NCBI GenBank assembly: GCA_002162815.1
Contig: MAAT01000021.1
Span: forward strand, 1 to 64,000
From: Gammaproteobacteria bacterium 53_120_T64
Lineage (GTDB): Bacteria; Pseudomonadota; Gammaproteobacteria; Pseudomonadales; Porticoccaceae
DNA length: 64,000 bases
Direction: 5' to 3'
Part shown: positions 25,474-52,431 of the stretch, piece by piece
Layout of the letters: each line of letters starts with the position of its first letter
Position numbering within the stretch: the first letter of the stretch is position 1
Notes under the pieces: generated by a model
What the model was told of the DNA's origin: nothing
The model's input: the letters and a program-made list of their open reading frames with translations, nothing else
Database searches by the model: none
Program-made: the position numbers and the translations under genes

Positions 25474-25801
25474 TTATTAGCCTGTGCTTAATGAACTAGC
25501 AGGCTCTGAAACGGAACGGGGTTCTGCTCGAGTGCTGCGGAGTTTGTCTTGGTAGACCACTGCCTTCGGATGAAAAGGGTCTTAGTTTGGAAGGGGCTTA
25601 GTTTGAAATCCGCTGTGTCTTACCAGCCCTGTCTTTTAGACACACCCCCGATAGTTAACTACCACCTTAATATAGGGCAACACGACTTCAGTATCGAGAA
25701 ATTTGAGTGGGCACTCCTATCGCACCCTGGATCTCCAACCAAAGGGACGCGTCCCTTTGGTTCTCATCTGGATTCAACACCCTTTCAGTCGCGACTTACA
25801 C
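25474..25801. other. Intergenic stretch with a long perfect palindrome
   Basis: No supported gene. Its main feature is a 26-base perfect palindrome at 25737-25762 (AACCAAAGGGACG on the left half), listed separately. The plus-strand open frames here come from a poly-pyrimidine run that is the antisense of the small Lys-rich gene. Confidence 0.6.
25737..25762. repeat. 26-bp perfect palindrome
   Basis: Self-complementary, centred on ACGCGT: left half AACCAAAGGGACG. It can fold as a hairpin or cruciform. It is similar in style to REP-like elements, or could end transcription of anr or of the convergent Lys-rich gene, although no T-tract follows on either strand. Confidence 0.75.
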
Positions 25802-25906
25802 CTATATTTTATTCGCTTTCTTTTCCTTTTTTTCTTTACGTTTTTCTTTCATTGTTTTTTCAGGTTTCTTTTTGGTTGCTTTTTTTGAATCTTGGCCTTT
25901 TGACAT
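25802..25906 (-). CDS. Small lysine-rich protein (34 residues)
   Basis: ATG at 25906 begins MSKGQDSKKATKKKPEK and continues with alternating Lys/Glu to a TAG at 25802. About half the residues are Lys. AAGGAG lies 6-7 bases upstream of the ATG, an excellent ribosome site. I recall short Lys-rich proteins with MxKGQDxKKxTKKKP starts in other Proteobacteria, of unknown role; nucleic-acid or ribosome binding would be a guess. Confidence 0.7.
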   Translation of the reverse strand: MSKGQDSKKATKKKPEKTMKEKRKEKKEKKANKI

Positions 25907-31231: not shown

Positions 31232-31930
31232 TAGCAAATATTCAAGCAACTCGGCTCTGGCTGTTTCGGCGCGGTGTACCTATGCCACGACAAGGCCATG
31301 CGGCGCGATGTGGCGATCAAACCCAAAGACGAGAAGCTGATCGCTTTCGCCACTAGCCCTGCCGAAGAAGGGCTGGCGGTGCTGCGCGGACGTTTTGTGC
31401 GTGAGGCACGCATTCTGGCCCAGCTGGATGACTGTACCTATATCGTCAATGCGCTGGGGTTGCTGGTACAGATCTTCGAGGGCATGGCTTAGCCCATCAG
31501 CACCAACAGATCCATCGCGATATCAAACCCGCTAACATCCTGCTGACCGAGCGCGGCGAAATCCGTATCGCCGATTTTGGTATCGCCAAAGCCCCCCCCC
31601 CCCCACGGCCAGCACTCCACCGTCTCGCAACTTGGCATTGGTTCGCGTAATTACATAGCCCCGGTGCAGCGCGAGAGCGTCAAACAAGTCGATGCCCGCG
31701 CCGACGTCTGTGCCCTGGGAGTGCTGTCTTACCGGATGATCATCGGCAAGCTGCCCAGCGGCCGCTACGCCGTCCCCGAGGTACGGGTTCCGGCGCTGAG
31801 AAAGGCGCTCAATCAGGTCATACTGACGGCACTGACCGAGGCCCCAGCCGGACGCTATGCCGACGCCCTGTTGTCAGCCTTTCAAAGAGGCCTGTGCAAA
31901 AGGTCTTATCCAGCCGTTTACCCGCTTTGA
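31232..31930 (+). pseudogene. Broken Ser/Thr kinase gene (copy 1)
   Basis: Fragments of a Hanks kinase in shifting frames: the Gly loop (LGSGCFGAVYL), RRDVAIKPKDEKL and [15 protein letters not shown]; then a deletion; then [16 protein letters not shown] with DFGIAKAP; then, after a run of 13 C (31592-31604), [18 protein letters not shown] and VDARADVCALGVLSYRM. In-frame stops and at least two frameshifts rule out a full product. It is closely related to the broken kinase at 50386 and the scrap at 42813. Confidence 0.85.
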
Positions 31931-36191: not shown

Positions 36192-37058
36192 ATGAAAAAA
36201 TTATTTATTTTGTTACTTGCAATGTCGACTCTATACGGGTGCACACCTCTTGCCGTAAGAACTCAAAACCTGGTTATCCCACAAAATGAAAAACCAAGTA
36301 GCATTATAGGGTTCACAACAAGCATTGCTTTAGATAATCATCCAGATTACGTTAGTTATTCTGACTCCAAGATAAACCAACTGGACATGATCAACATCAT
36401 CGAAGACACAAAGTTATTCAACACAGATGAAACAGCCTACATAGCAAAATCATTATCTGAAATGAGCGCAAAATGGGCAGAGCCATCTAACGTCATTATT
36501 TCTTTATATGAAAAGCCACAGGCTAAATTTAAATTCATTACAGTAGAAGAGTGGGGAAAAGTCTTTCAAATATCGTATGAAGTGAATGAAAGCTGGTTGA
36601 AGCAAACAGGACGAGCTCTTGCTCAGAAAATGCTCCTATATTCTGGAGGTGTCCAAGTAAAAATCAGGCGGCGATATGATACCAATGGAAACCTGGTAGC
36701 GGCGCGTGATGTACCTACTACTATAAGTAGATTTTCTGATTATGGTTTTATTTACAGGGGCAAAGAGCTCGACAAGGAAAACATTGAACGACTTAACACT
36801 GGAATTTGGACAAAAGACGCCATACGAGACCTGCTCGGACCACCAACAGAAGAGCGGATGCTAACGGACGGATCGAATGTAATTCTATACCATTATAAAG
36901 CATGGGGGAGAAGCAAAGCCCACTTGGCAAACCCTCTCTCTGTTCTCGTTAAAGATAAAATCAGACATACGCAAATCCTCGAAATAAGATTGGTTAACAA
37001 TCAAGCAACGGAACACGGATTCGATGAATGTAAAGATGATTGTCCCGAAATACTTTAA
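36192..37058 (+). CDS. Lipoprotein with C-terminal BamE/SmpA-like segment
   Basis: 288 residues; lipobox LLLAMSTLYGC. Residues ~205-255 (RLNTGIWTKDAIRDLLGPPT, then DGSNVILYHYKAW) fit the SmpA/OmlA-BamE pattern (G-x-T-x-x-x-V-x-x-LG-x-P ... W-x-Y). The N-terminal 200 residues are not recognised. It overlaps the caspase gene by 35 bases, which argues for coupled expression. Confidence 0.7.
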   Translation: MKKLFILLLAMSTLYGCTPLAVRTQNLVIPQNEKPSSIIGFTTSIALDNHPDYVSYSDSKINQLDMINIIEDTKLFNTDETAYIAKSLSEMSAKWAEPSNVIISLYEKPQAKFKFITVEEWGKVFQISYEVNESWLKQTGRALAQKMLLYSGGVQVKIRRRYDTNGNLVAARDVPTTISRFSDYGFIYRGKELDKENIERLNTGIWTKDAIRDLLGPPTEERMLTDGSNVILYHYKAWGRSKAHLANPLSVLVKDKIRHTQILEIRLVNNQATEHGFDECKDDCPEIL

Positions 37059-38886
37059 CTTCTTCAAGCTGTTCAATATTAAGGTGGTGCTATCTTGCAT
37101 CACCTTAATATTGATTAACACTCCAATATCTCAAGGTGCGACTAATGATAGGAATAGCAGGGGCATAGAGATTAAAGAAAAGCCGTCTACGAAAGGCACC
37201 TCAAGCAAAGAAAACAAATCGATTTATGATAGCATTCATGCATTGGTCATAGGTATAAATGAATATGATGATAGAAGAATACCTTCTCTGCAATATGCAA
37301 TAAACGACGCCTCTAGCATCCTAAAAACTCTAGAAAAAACAGGCGTAGCATCTAGCAATATAATTTTTATTGAAGGAAAAAATGCGACGAAAACCAACAT
37401 ATTATCGGCCATTAAAAACACCCTAAAAAACAGACTTAAAGAAAACGATGGCTTAGTTGTTTTTTTTGCAGGCCACGGCGTACACACCACGCGAAAGAAG
37501 ATTTCCGGCGAGGTCGTCGAACAAGGTTATTTGTTACCATATAATGCGAAAAACGATCAGATTTCGTCTACAGCCATCTCGCTTCAACTGCTTAACGATC
37601 TACTTATGGACTTGCCTGCTAAGCATGTTTTATTGACCATTGACGCTTGTTATAGCGGGTTCGCCCTTAACAGATCATCCAACAACTCTTTTATATCAAG
37701 TTTGGCATCAAAACAATCTAGATTTGTAATAACAGCAGGGGGAAAAGGCGAGCAAGCTTTAGAGGTCGCGGGTCATGGTATTTTCACTGAAAAGCTGATT
37801 GAGGGGCTATCAGGTTTCGCCGACTTAGACATTGATGGATTTGTTACCGCTTCCGAGCTGGGAACCTACCTTAAATCGGCAGTTTCCAAATCTTCAAATG
37901 GATCACAAACACCTATATTCGGTTCATTATATGGGGAGGGTGAATTTATATTTGATGTAAAAAGAAGCAGGCCAGGCTACCGAAAAGAAATGCGTAAAGC
38001 ACTAACAGGAAAAAACCTTTATGACTCTGAATACGATGCAGGCCTTTATTTATTCGACCAAGGGAAGTATAAAGAGGCAAAAAATCGATTTAAAAAAGCC
38101 TTGATGTATCGACCCAGCGATTATTGGGCTAGCCAAAAAATAACCTACATTAATGCATTCCAACCGCTTAAAGAAAGTATAGTTCTTGCAAATAACACAG
38201 TCATGCACTTGATCAAAGCAGACTCGTTTGTGATGGGAAATAATTTGTCTCATACCGACCAAGAAAAACCACGGCGCATTGAGTTCATACAGGATTTTTA
38301 TATTTCATCCAACGAGGTTTCTTTGAAGGAATATTCATACTTCTTAGAACAAAACAAAACCGTCTCGCCTCCTTTATATTTCGACATCCAGTCATCTTAT
38401 GGTGATCTAACTCTACCAGTCCAAGGTATATCCTGGGATCAAGCTGATTTATTTTGCCGATATTACGGCGCCAATCTCCCTACAGAAAAAGAGTGGGAGT
38501 ATACCGCCAGAGGTAGCAGCGGGAAAAGGTATATCACCGGTAGCAACATCCCCAACAACGACATAACCAATTGGTATAATGACAATAAATATAGGAATAT
38601 ATCACCACCCGGTCGCTTCCCTCTGGACAAAACAGAACAGGGGATTTATGACATGATGGGGAATGTAAAGGAGTGGGTCAGAGATGTTGATGATGGGTAT
38701 ATTTTGCAACAAATCCCTGTTGATAAAACAGGGCGTAGCTACAAGGTTGTAAGGGGCGCTAACTACAAGACAAGGAGCACGAACATGCTTCAATTAAGTA
38801 ATCGCGAATTTAGGTATCCAAATACGGGTTACATTGGTATTGGATTTAGATGTTCAAAAACACCATCCATTCAAGACTATGAATGA
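37024..38886 (+). CDS. Secreted caspase-like peptidase fused to EF-hand, TPR and FGE/SUMF1-like domain
   Basis: 620 residues. An N-terminal hydrophobic segment (~20-38) suggests export. The caspase (peptidase C14) domain is ~65-310, with HALVIGINEYDD, the catalytic His151 in FFAGHGVH and Cys209 in TIDACYSGF. A canonical 12-residue EF-hand loop (D267-x-D269-x-D271-G-...-E278) is built in. Then a TPR-like unit (YLFDQGKYKEAKNRFKKAL) and, from ~395, a sulfatase-modifying-factor domain (LPTEKEWEYTARG, GIYDMMGNVKEWV, GIGFRC). FGE active-site cysteines are absent, so this domain is probably binding rather than catalytic. Confidence 0.88.
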   Translation: MNVKMIVPKYFNFFKLFNIKVVLSCITLILINTPISQGATNDRNSRGIEIKEKPSTKGTSSKENKSIYDSIHALVIGINEYDDRRIPSLQYAINDASSILKTLEKTGVASSNIIFIEGKNATKTNILSAIKNTLKNRLKENDGLVVFFAGHGVHTTRKKISGEVVEQGYLLPYNAKNDQISSTAISLQLLNDLLMDLPAKHVLLTIDACYSGFALNRSSNNSFISSLASKQSRFVITAGGKGEQALEVAGHGIFTEKLIEGLSGFADLDIDGFVTASELGTYLKSAVSKSSNGSQTPIFGSLYGEGEFIFDVKRSRPGYRKEMRKALTGKNLYDSEYDAGLYLFDQGKYKEAKNRFKKALMYRPSDYWASQKITYINAFQPLKESIVLANNTVMHLIKADSFVMGNNLSHTDQEKPRRIEFIQDFYISSNEVSLKEYSYFLEQNKTVSPPLYFDIQSSYGDLTLPVQGISWDQADLFCRYYGANLPTEKEWEYTARGSSGKRYITGSNIPNNDITNWYNDNKYRNISPPGRFPLDKTEQGIYDMMGNVKEWVRDVDDGYILQQIPVDKTGRSYKVVRGANYKTRSTNMLQLSNREFRYPNTGYIGIGFRCSKTPSIQDYE

Positions 38887-46876: not shown

Positions 46877-49800
46877 ATGCGCAAGGATCTGGTAGTGATG
46901 AGGTTAGTGATTTCTGTTTTTTTGCTTGCTCTGGCTGTCCCATCAATGGGAGCGCAGCTCTTGGACTCAAAGGACTATACCAGGCTATCAAAGTACGGCC
47001 CTTATACGATCGCCGTCAAAATCGACAATATGTCGCCAGAAAACCGGACTTATTATGGCTCGTTGCCGTTATTTGGTAATTACACCAATGGCAACGTTGC
47101 ACTGATAAGCCATATCGAAGCCATACAGGTAACGGATCAGGACGGAAGGGTGCTGAGTTGGGTTGATGCATCAAGCATCTTAGCGAAGGTGTTGGACCTG
47201 CCTGTCGTTTCAGAACCAATCATTCCAGGATCTTACGAGTTCACAAATCTTAAAAACGGTAGCCACTTTCTAACCCCTGAGTCATTTTCCATGCTCTTGG
47301 TGGGAAAGATACCAATTCATATGTCACAAGTACGACGCGTACTCTATAAGGCTGTGATTTTAGATGCTATCGCATTGAAAGAAGCCAAGAATGTGAAGGC
47401 TATTACTATTACTGAAGGAGGATTGAGCACCTATGCGGCACTGGCATCCTTTGGTGTGGTTGATGCTTCACTCTCAGGGGGGATGGGTGTCTATGAGCAA
47501 ATACGAACCATCTCTGACACTGCGCGGGCCCTACAACATGGCAGCCCGACTGCAGCCATTGCGGCCAAAGTTTCTAAGAGAGTAGGTGACAGCAAGCTCG
47601 GCCAATTTTCAAAAGGTTTAGGATTGCTAGCTACCAGTTTAGAGTTCGCATCCAACTATCGCGATAAACAAGCGGTGAACGCGTACCTGGCAGAAGTCGC
47701 AAATGACCTGTCTTTGTTAATCAGCATCAACGACCTGAGGGAGCTGATCAAGAACTCACCTAGTCACGATCCTGCCATGGCGCAAGGGATTGAAGACGCT
47801 ATCGATGAGCTAATAAAACTCAGCCAATCCCGCTTTAGACAAATGGCCACATCAGGTACTCATGCTTCCATAAAAGCAGCACCGTCGTTGGCAGCATTAG
47901 TAGGTAGAAGCATTGCTACTGGGGGTGCTAGCTTGGTGATCAGAGAGTTCATCGAATTAGGTGTGACCCTCACCGAAGGTACCGTTGATGTGTTAAAAAT
48001 TTCTGCATTGGTGACTCTGGGAGAGTTTATGCGGGGGCACTTGGACGTGTTGACCGTTGGCGCTTTAGTGGGCATAACCTCTGCTACGGATATCTCTGTG
48101 CGGGAGTTAAAAGGGTTGCGCCGTCTTATCTCTCTGGAGGCTACTGCGAGAGTGTATGGTTTTGCCTGGGGGGAACGCTGGTCAGACGCAAACAGTATTG
48201 CTGATTTTGGCAAAGGCATCGGCCTCACGATCGCCTCCTTGAGAGCGTCATGGTCTGATCAAGGCGTCAATAAAGAAGATTACTTGTCGCAATTACGACG
48301 CAGAGCCGAGGATTACAATGAATATATGGCGCTCATGGAGCAGATACCCTTAAGCCTGAAACAGATTGATGATCAGTGTTTGTACCTCGAAGAGAACCAA
48401 CAAGATACCCAGCGGCTCCCTTCCCGCTGTAGCCATAGAGGCATAAGCCAGGCCCTTTTACTGCTCATAGACAACTCCGGCAGCATGAAAAAAAATGACC
48501 CTCAATATTTGCGCAAGGTGGCCGTACAAAAAATTATCGATATAGCGCCCGAAGGCACCAAGATCGGTATTATTGGTTTCCAAAATAACGCTTCTGTCAT
48601 TGCCAACCCCACCCAACTGGATAACTACAACGGCGCTGACCGCCAGCAGCTCAGAGATAGCACTGATAAGATTCACCACAATGGCGGTACCAACATACGC
48701 GAAGCGCTGAGCCTAGCCGCAGCGCAACTACAGCCAGGGGAGATAACGTCGATTATTTTACTGAGTGATGGCGAGGACAAACAATGGCACGGCTCCCCTG
48801 GCAACCTGCCTACGGATGTGACCGTGCATGCCATCGCACTCTCGGCCAACGCCGATACGCAAGCGCTGCGGGCGGTTGCTCAAGCTACTGGAGGCCGCTT
48901 CGATACGGCTCAGAGTGGTCGTGACCTAGATCGAATTTTTCAGACCCTGTTTGAGCAGTCCACCCAGCAGGAGCTGAACCAGTTTACCCAAAATAGTATC
49001 AGCCCCGGCGAGAACCATATGTTCAGTGTTGATGTAGAGCCGGGTGCTGACGCGATTTACTGCAAGGTCGACTGGCCCGGAAGCGATATCGATCTGTTGC
49101 TGATATCGCCCTCAGGGAAACGTATAGATACCGCCCAGGCCGTCAACCAAGGTCATGGGGTCGAGCGCCCCACTTACGACATGATTGAGATTAAACACCC
49201 TGAACCCGGACGGTGGAAAATACGGGTGCAGGCGGTCGATGTGGATCCGAACGGAGAGACTTACACCCTGCGAACCTCAACCAGCGGCGATCTGCGCAAA
49301 GCTCAGTGGCAAGTCCCAACCGGAACACCCGCCATCAACGATTACACGGCAATCAAAATCAAGATGGCCGACACTCTCTGGAAGCAAGCCTCTGTCACCG
49401 TTTGGGACGACCAAGGTCAGCAATTGAGCCGTAGCGACGTGGCCACCTCGGTTGACGGCCAAGTGCCTTTGCCTGTGCTGAATCGAGCGGGGATGCACCG
49501 GGTGCAGATCGTCGCTCAGGGGATCACCAACGAGGGGCACCGGGTAAGCCGCAGTTTTGATCAATCCATTCGCTTTTCAAAAGCCGTCGCTCAGCCCAAG
49601 TCAAAACCACAACCGGTCAAACCGCCTCAGCCAGTGGTTGAGCGTTTGCGTTCAATGTCCCTTAACGCGTATCTGAACCAGCCCCAAGTGGCGGTTTCTG
49701 CAGGTCATCAACCGTCCGTAGCGTTAGCTACCGCAACAATCAAGACCCAGCCAGATGCGAAGTATGAACCGCCTCGCCGTGCCACCACCACAACATTTAA

Positions 49801-50335
49801 TGCCAACCAGATCTTTGATGCGCTGACGGTCACCAACAACGGCATAGACAGTCGGCGTATCAATTTGGATATCCAGTTCGAGGTCAATTCAGCAAGACTC
49901 AGTGATACGACGCGGGAACAACTTCAGCAGCTTGGCGAAGCACTGAAACGTGTCGGAGCTAACACGTTCGAAATTGCTGGCCATACCGATAGCTCTGGTA
50001 GCAACAGTGCCAACCTTATACTCTCTCGCATGCGCGCCGCCAGCGTGCGAACCTATTTGCTGGATAACTTTGGGTTAAGCACCAGCAAACTAGCCGCAAC
50101 GGGATACGGTGAACGCTTCCCTCGTTCAGGGCGTGCAGCACAAGACCCGCTCAACCGCCGGGTTGAGGTTGTCAACCATGGCAAATGGATCTCTGTCAGT
50201 GAAATTGAAGCACAGGCTTCGAAAAAAGTGCGAGGAGAACAACGCAACACTGCGCCTACCCCCGCACGTCAGCAAATGAACAAAGATAAAAAACCTGCGG
50301 CCAAAAAATTGCAAAAACTCAATGATTATTTTTAG
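46877..50335 (+). CDS. Large secreted protein with VWA, PPC-like and OmpA C-terminal domains
   Basis: 1152 residues with a signal peptide (LVISVFLLALAVPSMGA). Residues 30-500 are unrecognised and contain two hydrophobic patches. The VWA domain (~525-690) keeps the MIDAS motif DNSGSM plus GGTNIREAL and LLSDGEDK. A pre-peptidase-C-terminal-like beta domain follows (~704-800, GSDIDLLLISPSG, PEPGRWKIRVQ). An OmpA-type peptidoglycan-binding domain (~990-1105) reads IQFEVNSARLSD, GHTDSSGSN and NRRVEVVN. It is therefore tethered to the cell wall with an adhesive domain. GGAG lies 10 bases upstream of the ATG. Last gene of the four-gene operon. Confidence 0.9.
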   Translation: MRKDLVVMRLVISVFLLALAVPSMGAQLLDSKDYTRLSKYGPYTIAVKIDNMSPENRTYYGSLPLFGNYTNGNVALISHIEAIQVTDQDGRVLSWVDASSILAKVLDLPVVSEPIIPGSYEFTNLKNGSHFLTPESFSMLLVGKIPIHMSQVRRVLYKAVILDAIALKEAKNVKAITITEGGLSTYAALASFGVVDASLSGGMGVYEQIRTISDTARALQHGSPTAAIAAKVSKRVGDSKLGQFSKGLGLLATSLEFASNYRDKQAVNAYLAEVANDLSLLISINDLRELIKNSPSHDPAMAQGIEDAIDELIKLSQSRFRQMATSGTHASIKAAPSLAALVGRSIATGGASLVIREFIELGVTLTEGTVDVLKISALVTLGEFMRGHLDVLTVGALVGITSATDISVRELKGLRRLISLEATARVYGFAWGERWSDANSIADFGKGIGLTIASLRASWSDQGVNKEDYLSQLRRRAEDYNEYMALMEQIPLSLKQIDDQCLYLEENQQDTQRLPSRCSHRGISQALLLLIDNSGSMKKNDPQYLRKVAVQKIIDIAPEGTKIGIIGFQNNASVIANPTQLDNYNGADRQQLRDSTDKIHHNGGTNIREALSLAAAQLQPGEITSIILLSDGEDKQWHGSPGNLPTDVTVHAIALSANADTQALRAVAQATGGRFDTAQSGRDLDRIFQTLFEQSTQQELNQFTQNSISPGENHMFSVDVEPGADAIYCKVDWPGSDIDLLLISPSGKRIDTAQAVNQGHGVERPTYDMIEIKHPEPGRWKIRVQAVDVDPNGETYTLRTSTSGDLRKAQWQVPTGTPAINDYTAIKIKMADTLWKQASVTVWDDQGQQLSRSDVATSVDGQVPLPVLNRAGMHRVQIVAQGITNEGHRVSRSFDQSIRFSKAVAQPKSKPQPVKPPQPVVERLRSMSLNAYLNQPQVAVSAGHQPSVALATATIKTQPDAKYEPPRRATTTTFNANQIFDALTVTNNGIDSRRINLDIQFEVNSARLSDTTREQLQQLGEALKRVGANTFEIAGHTDSSGSNSANLILSRMRAASVRTYLLDNFGLSTSKLAATGYGERFPRSGRAAQDPLNRRVEVVNHGKWISVSEIEAQASKKVRGEQRNTAPTPARQQMNKDKKPAAKKLQKLNDYF

Positions 50336-50385: not shown

Positions 50386-52320
50386 ATGGATAAGATCGGA
50401 CGTTATCAAATTCTTAAACCCCTGGGACAAGGCGGCTTCGGCGAGGTGTTCCTCGGCCACGACCCGGTGATGTGGCGATCAAGGTATTGCGTCACAAAGA
50501 TGAAAACCTGATCGCCTTCGCCAACAGCTCCGATGAAGAGGGGCTGGCCGTACTGCGGGAGCGCTTCCTGCGTGAGGCACGCATTCTGGCCCAACTCGAA
50601 GACAAGCTCTATATCGTCAACGCACTGGAGCTTGGTGAACTCGACGACGGCAGCCCCTGGTACACCATGCCGTTCGTGCCCAGATCACTGGCCGATGAAC
50701 TCGGCAAGGATATCTTCGACGAACACGCGCTGGCAGAGCTCAGTGATGCCAAGTAGCCCAAGGCGTTGACTGTTGACCGGGCGCTCGACCTGCTGGAACA
50801 GACCCTCAATGGCATGGCTCCCGCACATAAGGCCAGGCTGATCCACCGCGATATCAAACCCGCCAACATCCTGCTGACCGAGCGCGGCGAAATCCGTATC
50901 GCCGACTTCGGCATCGCCAAGGCTCCCGACGGGCAGCACTCCGCCGTCTCGCAACTTGGCATCGGTTCGCGCAATTACATGGCCCCGGAGCAGCGCGAGA
51001 GCACCAAACATGTCGATGCCCGCGCTGATGTCTACTCGCTTGCCGTACTGACCTACCAGATGCTGACCGGCAAGCTGCCCACGAGGCGCTACGCCGATCC
51101 CAACGACCACTGCGCCGCGCTCGGAAGTGCACTCAACAGGGTTATTCTCAAAGCGCGATCGGTAAATAAGTGCGGACGTTTTCAGGATGCCGCTGAGTTT
51201 AACGCGGTACTTAAGTCTGCCCGTTTGCAGCAACAACAAAGTGACAGTGACACCCAGACCTACACCGACGTCAGCCCCGCCACCACCAGTACGATCAGCC
51301 CACGATTGCAACCGCTGGCGCAGCTGATCGACAGACATTGCTAGAGCACGGCCAGCTTGACCCCAAGCAGGCCGAGATCAACGGCATGGCCCGGGACTGG
51401 TCCTGACCGAAGCACAACTCGACGCCCTGCAACAGCAGATTGAGGAACAGCTGGACGAATCATTGACCATCCTATGCAACCTGCTCGGGTTGATTAATGA
51501 ACAGGATCAGCAGCAAAATGAACGTCCGCTGGACGAACCTCAACGTCAGGCACTGAACCAGGTCGCCGCGCTGGTGGGCAAAGACAGACACTGGGACGAG
51601 CAACGCCTCAAAACGCCGTTGCCGCTCCGCGCAAGCTGGCCAAACCGCTGGCGACAGCCGCACTGACGGTATTCATCCTGACCGGTAGCTACGCCGGTTA
51701 CGACTATTACCAGGATCAGGATCAGCAGGCCGTGCAGAACGAAGCGACCGCCTGGCAGCAGGCGCAACGACTAAACAATGCCGACGGCTACCGGCTCTAT
51801 CTGCAAAGCTGGCCCCCCACCGGGTCTGCCGATGCTCTGCTCCTTAAAGAGCTGCACGCCGAATTCAGCGAACGCGATCAACATGCATGGACCAAGGCAA
51901 AAAAGCCAATAGAGCTTCCGTCTGCCAACGGAGTCAGAATGGGAGTACGCAGCAAGATCCGGCAGCACACCCGCCTACAGTTGGGGTAACAGTAGCGGCA
52001 ACGGCAACGGCAACGCCAACTGTGATGGCTGTAACGGTGGTTTTGATAACTCAAAAACCGCCCCGGTGAGCCACTACGCCGCAAACGCCTACGGTCTCTA
52101 CGATATGCACGGTAATGTCACGGAGTGGACAGCGAACATCTATTACAGCGATTACAACGGTGTACCAAGCGATGGCAGCGCCCCAGGCGAGGCGGACCGT
52201 GTTCACCGTGGCGGCTCTTGGTTCTACAATCCATACTTCTTGCGTTCGGCTGGCCGTAACTGGAGCAACCCGTCGAGTCGGAACTACAGTATCTGTTTCC
52301 GTCTCGTCCAGGATATTTAA
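50386..52320 (+). pseudogene. Broken Ser/Thr kinase - FGE/SUMF1 fusion gene (copy 3, DGR-type target)
   Basis: Begins MDKIGRYQILKPLGQGGFGE, loses frame near 50480 by a small deletion, resumes as VAIKVLRHKDENLIAFANSS, meets an in-frame TAG at 50754, then continues in the same frame with [26 protein letters not shown] and MAPEQRES to 51344. Further shifts follow, then a transmembrane segment (PLATAALTVFILTGSYAGYD) and, from 51919 in one clean frame of 134 codons, an FGE domain (RLPTESEWEYAARSG, YGLYDMHGNVTEW, RGGSW...). The original was a receptor-like kinase with an external FGE domain. The end resembles a DGR variable region. Confidence 0.88.
52200..52320 (+). repeat. Candidate DGR variable region at the 3' end of the FGE domain
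   Basis: The last 40 codons read VHRGGSWFYNPYFLRSAG, RNWSNPSSRNYSI and CFRLVQDI. FGE-type DGR targets typically end RGGSW-N-N-N...LRSA-N-R-N...N-P...-R-N...I-G-FRLV, with AAY codons in the template repeat replaced at variable sites. Here the constant positions fit and the variable ones are Phe, Tyr, Gly, Trp and Ser. No second (template) copy was seen in the window. Confidence 0.65.
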
Positions 52321-52403
52321 CTTTGATCTTTGTACTTTTTCACTTTATTCGATCCGGCGCGGCTGGTTCGCTATGACAGAGCCGTTCGGCGCAGCCGATC
52401 TGT

Positions 52404-52431
52404 TAGGGGGGCGCAAGGGGGCTCCCCCCTA
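52404..52431. repeat. GC-rich hairpin downstream of the variable region
   Basis: TAGGGGGG (52404-52411) pairs with CCCCCCTA (52424-52431) around a 12-base loop, 84 bases after the FGE stop. DGR target genes often carry a hairpin shortly after the variable region that raises mutagenic homing. It could instead be a terminator without T-tract. Confidence 0.5.

Follow-up and report, generated by a model that had tools for sequence, protein, structure and literature searches.

The stretch of DNA analysed here (the window) comprises 64,000 nucleotides of Gammaproteobacteria bacterium 53_120_T64 and lies on contig C40 of an assembly of 2.95 Mb in 76 contigs that is 93.56% complete. Within it, a broken Ser/Thr kinase gene is followed on the same strand by the end of a formylglycine-generating-enzyme-like (FGE) domain with a segment resembling the variable region (VR) of a diversity-generating retroelement (DGR), by a short tract behind the stop codon and by a hairpin. 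The features are:

50386-51905, + strand, Ser/Thr kinase pseudogene with stalk, interrupted by a TAG at 50754 and by repeated shifts of frame
51916-52320, + strand, open frame up to TAA for the C-terminal portion of an FGE domain, N-terminal part absent
52207-52305, + strand, VR-like segment RGGSW...FRL, with TGG at 52261 against AGG in four templates of the same class
52321-52346, + strand, post-stop tract CTTTGATCTTTGTACTTTTTCACTTT, identical at 22/25 bases to the post-VR sequence of the DGR locus L219
52404-52431, no strand, GC-rich hairpin with an 8-bp stem, a DGR role being unsupported by its loop and spacing

The kinase starts with MDKIGRYQILKPLGQGGFGEVFLG at 50386 and its kinase coding part covers 50386-51344. 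The Pkinase profile (PF00069) matches at 50766-51341 (E 1e-27, 97.7 bits against a curated cut-off of 31.7), and the gene is broken by five frame changes, near 50465, 51335, 51400, 51615 and 51905, and by the in-frame TAG at 50754; the frameshifts and the nonsense codon reported in an earlier reading of the bare sequence (the sequence-only reading) are thereby confirmed. A hydrophobic stretch in the stalk is read as a membrane span. Relatives of the kinase occur in other genomes of the same order with 37-45% identity, and a search of plasmid DNA with the whole gene as query gave matches mainly to the kinase. Directly upstream lies a gene (46877-50335) whose 1152-aa product has a von Willebrand A domain and an OmpA domain. 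This neighbour has a match in only one of 57 relatives, and a partial one, and therefore a comparison of strains at this locus is impossible.

Behind the frameshifted kinase, an open FGE frame of 134 codons runs from FRLPTESEWEYAAR to RGGSWFYNPYFLRSAGRNWSNPSSRNYSICFRLVQDI and ends with TAA at 52318-52320, as the sequence-only reading had it. In a profile search that read through stops, FGE-sulfatase (PF03781) matches at 51901-52308 (E 1.2e-32, 113.4 bits against a curated cut-off of 23.3), and the best FGE match has 49% identity. The profile match spans positions 110-254 of 255; approximately the first 110 positions are absent and the open tail is, therefore, an incomplete domain. The N-terminal FGE part is lost exactly at the junction with the kinase, where the frame also shifts. 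A kinase-FGE fusion, as proposed from the sequence alone, is likely but has a damaged junction, and because the N-terminal FGE part is lost there, it is less sure that kinase and VR were one gene.

The VR-like segment lies at the 3' end of the FGE domain, the position that a VR has in targets of the C-type-lectin/FGE fold. It is consistent with a VR and by itself non-diagnostic. The motif RGGSW...LRSA.R...FR, which had been taken as a hallmark of DGR targets, is ordinary FGE sequence, common to FGE tails at many loci without a nearby DGR, and we rejected it as evidence. The codons at the supposed variable sites, which had been cited as AAY-derived, do not decide the matter: at 13 aligned sites the window has NNY codons at 12, and all six DGR-linked VRs of equal length have 12-13, but a count of 12 is likewise attained by 16 of the 46 other FGE tails (counted on the 33-residue tails among 58, with six template rows set aside).

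Templates from the same class were also compared with the segment. One of them is that of L219, a DGR in genome G676 with a template, a reverse transcriptase (RT), Avd (bAvd) and two FGE targets. TGG at 52261 is one adenine change away from the AGG in the templates of L219, L220, L221 and L224. TGT at 52294, in place of a conserved glycine, and TCG at 52273 are not obtained by an adenine change from any template seen. Compared to the L219 template, the window differs at 16/31 adenine sites and at 17/68 other sites. Agreement with foreign templates at non-adenine sites was rejected as a discriminator, the window ranking 25 of 65 in a comparison that counts the short duplicate loci L205-L211 as other tails although they lie within DGR loci.

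Two further arguments of the sequence-only reading did not hold up. The 8-bp hairpin is real, with arms TAGGGGGG and CCCCCCTA at 52404-52431, and was thought to aid mutagenic homing. However, it starts 83 bases past the stop and has 12 bases between its arms, while the hairpins of phage-related DGRs, as given in the available text of PMC3240598, have a GC-rich stem of 7-10 bp and a 4-nt GRNA loop and lie 4-34 bp after the VR; we therefore rejected it as a DGR hairpin. Its folding was equalled or surpassed by 24 of 200 shuffles, comparable stems (8 bp, at least six G/C per arm, loop of 3-12) occur at six separate sites in the 64 kb, and it has a few bases in common with a hairpin after the second VR of L219. 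As for the diversified end, said to have stayed clean while the rest decayed, if 5 or 6 lesions fall at random on 1,935 bp, the 402-bp end stays free of them with P = 0.31 or 0.25, respectively. An undamaged end is thus expected by chance and selection to keep it clean is not needed.

What sets the locus apart is the tract behind the stop codon. The 45 bases that follow the stop contain four CTTT, and CTTTGATCTTTGTACTTTTTCACTTT occupies the same place relative to the stop as the sequence after the L219 VR. The L219 targets, one of which lies next to an AAA ATPase and to a TIR protein while the second has no other Pfam domain, are followed by TATTTGATCTTTGTGCTTTTGCCCTTTGC and TCTTTGATCTTTGCGCTTTTGCCCTTTGC, and the identity of 22/25 bases is to TATTTGATCTTTGTGCTTTTGCCCTTTGC. 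Among 42,640 segments of the window (both strands, every third base), a score this high was reached only by five that overlap the tract. Behind stop codons, a score of at least 18 was reached by none of 3,101 open reading frames (ORFs) from loci outside the list of FGE-type DGRs, a set that includes loci with DGRs of other target types. It was reached by 6/315 ORFs in DGR loci, of which four are from L219 (two loci, two frames) and those of L182 and L021 are independent, and by 1/141 window ORFs, namely the FGE tail frame. For the window, the length requirement was less strict and ORFs of 100 codons from stop to stop were accepted, because the FGE tail frame has only 71 codons past its first ATG. 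At least four CTTT after the stop were found for three of the 3,101 ORFs (L036, L047 and L066), each at the end of an FGE gene; the end of L066 is CTTT-rich and has a low similarity score to the tract.

A CTTT-rich tract follows the target stop in most of the FGE-type DGRs that we recognised by their template, VR and adenine-biased differences (L021, L174, L175, L181, L182, L197, L198 and L199). It was first seen in L021 and L175 and later in L197, L198 and L199, which had been chosen for another reason; L174 has a looser, T-rich form and was counted as lacking it. At least three CTTT in the 45 bases after the stop are present in 8 of 13 DGR-linked VRs compared to 4 of 45 other FGE genes (L011, L012, L036 and L047). 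In this count, L202 was taken as DGR-linked by its RT match and template-like peptide, with no TR/VR pair displayed, and the 45 others are those of 58 with a stop within 15 codons, the group including L176 and L012, which look DGR-related. Among the eight DGR loci of the class that have FGE targets of the RGGSW type, four (L204, L219, L223 and L224) have VRs with at least three CTTT, and the VRs of the other four (L213, L220, L221 and L225) have at most one. None of the eight has CTTT after its template frame. In phage-type DGRs with other targets, the tract was absent by eye.

The search for DGR RTs in 369 genomes of the class gave 13 positives. A degenerate tract pattern, built from the window and L219 and run on the same 369 genomes with up to three mismatches, gave 13 matching places, distributed over 11 genomes; with the reversed pattern as a control there were four such places, each in a different genome and listed without mismatch numbers. 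At no more than two mismatches, all six places are at FGE-type VR ends, three of them being exact matches in the pattern's own sources, i.e. the window and the two L219 VRs of G676. The other three are L244, a bare VR end that is also in G676; L236, an FGE gene whose VR contains a frame change; and L237, a near-copy of L236 from the same genus, available for its last residues only. The genomes of L236 and L237 are not among the 13 RT-positive ones. At three mismatches, 1/7 places is at an FGE-type VR end, namely L235 in the DGR-bearing genome G528, which has an in-frame stop in the VR and a protein ending in FRLAQDI compared to FRLVQDI in the window. The remaining six are not behind FGE genes, and two of them are in DGR-positive genomes (G639 and G587). 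The FGE ends that are independent of the pattern's construction are, thus, L235, L236, L237 and L244, and L235, L236 and L244 are damaged or fragmentary. These three may represent additional DGR fossils of the class.

The association of the tract with DGRs is incomplete. L036 and L047 carry the tract, and of their genomes, G108 gave no match to the RT query and G110 a weak one (E 3.9e-9). Perhaps these genes are fossils as well, or perhaps a DGR is not required for the tract; with no clear DGR RT in these genomes, the tract may therefore not prove a past DGR. CTTT-rich repeats also occur out of DGR context. Of two scans of viral sequences with the pattern, the first gave nothing and the second L182 and L183, which have the same DGR VR, as well as a plain repeat (L245). 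In the window, at least four CTTT within 45 bases occur on the + strand at just one further place, 25793-25864, with a CTTT-rich repeat at 25793-25820.

Neither a DGR RT nor a template was found in the assembly. No match to the DGR RT query was obtained at E 1e-6, and the single match to RVT_1 was rejected as a DGR RT, being a 57-codon piece that we read as the remnant of a group II intron. Searches of the assembly for a template, by BLAST with 52190-52330 and by a pattern with free variable codons and up to three mismatches, returned only the VR itself. An RT match of some sort at E 1e-8 was obtained in 13 of the 96 relatives. The SQ motif together with a TR/VR pair is present in only one genome (G089) among the 12 RT loci scanned (L105-L116), further RT matches being without a locus. 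Part of what the sequence-only reading had named as refuting it was observed, in that neither an RT nor a template was found in the genome itself and only one clear DGR, with another type of target, among the relatives. This DGR (L105/L121, from the same order) has one template and two VRs that differ from it with 11/11 and 12/13 differences at adenines. It and the DGR of G105, the genome of L027, are real by their TR/VR pairs but were rejected, the targets of both falling outside the RGGSW type.

Based on these data, we consider it probable that the 3' end described here is the fossil VR of an FGE-type DGR, orphaned and decayed. That it is a former DGR target is supported because the tract matches the post-VR sequence of L219 and sits at FGE-type VR ends; the sequence-only reading had reached the same idea, but from features that do not decide it and without the tract. 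In our model, a DGR with RT, Avd and template repeat would once have made copies of its template that were erroneous at adenines, and such a copy would have been written into the VR at the end of the kinase, the FGE domain of which would have acted as a ligand sensor. The tract would have been part of the target site or would have travelled along with it. The cassette would have been lost, or left elsewhere when the target moved, or would lie within the unassembled 6% of the genome, and the gene would then have decayed. Before its decay, the target would probably have been a kinase in the membrane whose FGE sensor was hypervariable.

A special case of this model is that the VR of a separate FGE target was brought behind the kinase pseudogene by a deletion and that the kinase itself was never diversified. 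We regard this as unlikely, though worth keeping in mind, and its probability is contained in that of the fossil VR as a whole. It would account for the absence of the N-terminal FGE part exactly at the junction and for the frame change there, and it has a counterpart in the second FGE target of L219 with its lack of other Pfam domains. The kinase-FGE protein L155 lacks the tract, which also speaks for this case. On the other hand, among kinase-FGE fusions L012 (718 aa) has the tract whereas L155 does not, and in the window the order and strand of kinase and FGE part agree.

By contrast, we hold it improbable that the gene is an ordinary kinase-FGE pseudogene that was never a DGR target, with a C-terminal motif that is general and a T-rich tract that is due to chance or is a degenerate terminator. 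The motif and the codon pattern do occur in FGE tails unlinked to DGRs, the assembly has no detected RT or template and L155, which is the nearest full-length kinase-FGE protein, has no tract. However, the combination of score and place that the tract reaches was not seen at any of the 3,101 ORF ends outside the listed FGE-type DGRs, and the six near matches (up to two mismatches) in the 369 genomes are all at FGE-type VR ends, even if half of these defined the pattern. Least probable, by a little, is that the pseudogene is a remote target still receiving copies from a DGR in the unassembled part of the genome, for which the incompleteness of the assembly and the trans activity reported at incomplete loci in Thiohalocapsa (available text of PMC10907252) leave some room, but against which stand the 76 contigs without a detectable RT or template and the upstream breakage of the gene, with which new variants would have no product.

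A fossil of a kinase target would be of a kind already known. According to the text available of PMC7517822, cyanobacterial DGR targets combine a Ser/Thr kinase domain with a C-type-lectin (CLec) VR and have remote and RT-less paralogues, among them all3226, in which a remnant of TR-VR homology persists while no RT lies nearby. Similar to the window, these targets have a kinase followed by a VR-bearing domain of the FGE/CLec type; the gene in the window differs in being a pseudogene from another lineage for which no template was found. Degenerate DGR loci and remote targets are described for Thiohalocapsa PB-PSB1 and possible DGR fossils for Nanoarchaeota (portions of PMC10907252 and PMC4372165, respectively). 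As in the window, these VRs have no nearby RT and are read as fossils or as remotely diversified. However, according to the same portions, those genomes have other DGRs, while the search of the genome analysed here revealed none, and it is the tract, not a TR/VR pair, on which our assignment is based. DGR-linked FGE-type domains in conflict systems have also been published (seen in part of PMC7159879). Thus, as far as these partial texts go, kinase-CLec targets, RT-less paralogues, degenerate loci and fossils are already in print.

Also close to the window is L219, which shares the LRSA of the FGE tail and the tract and whose template has AAC codons. It differs in having a template, RT and Avd as well as two open target genes, which lack a kinase domain. 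L155 (genome G339) and L012 from Acaryochloris, by contrast, resemble the window in having Pkinase and FGE domains, in their case in one protein; both are open, unlike the window, and the tract, with three CTTT, follows only L012.

From its position, the tract may belong to the site at which cDNA is integrated, or may travel along with that site. We propose more tentatively, and with slightly less than even confidence, that the target sites of many FGE-type DGRs, in cyanobacteria and planctomycetes as well as in this class, include it as a so far undescribed cis element that outlasts the decay of cassette and gene. No description of a CTTT tract was found in the available parts of PMC3240598, PMC3521204, PMC6642488, PMC4372165 and PMC10907252, a limited look that leaves the absence unproven. 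If the tract is such a durable cis element, then the VR-like end in the window, L235, L236/L237 and L244 are fossils marked by it, and orphan kinase-FGE and caspase-FGE genes with a tract, such as L012 and L036, are former or remote targets.

DGRs are usually detected by their RT and template and, therefore, targets that lack both go unseen. With orphaned VRs as such already known, the useful part of our observation is the tract as a tracer of DGR fossils. A post-VR sequence that outlives the cassette would make the fossils countable, and with them the frequency at which bacteria gain and abandon the targeted hypermutation of sensor proteins. For the source genome, it would mean that the kinase or an FGE protein was probably once a hypervariable receptor.

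The window and its genome contain further genes of these families. At about 31274-31930 lies a second kinase piece of the same kind, shorter and more broken; over 92 residues it is 61% identical to the first, and it was not found to be followed by an FGE part. The genome has two further FGE genes, one on contig C58 and the other a caspase-FGE fusion in the window (37024-38886). This fusion is an open frame with no tract after its stop; L036 is a caspase-FGE gene that has the tract.
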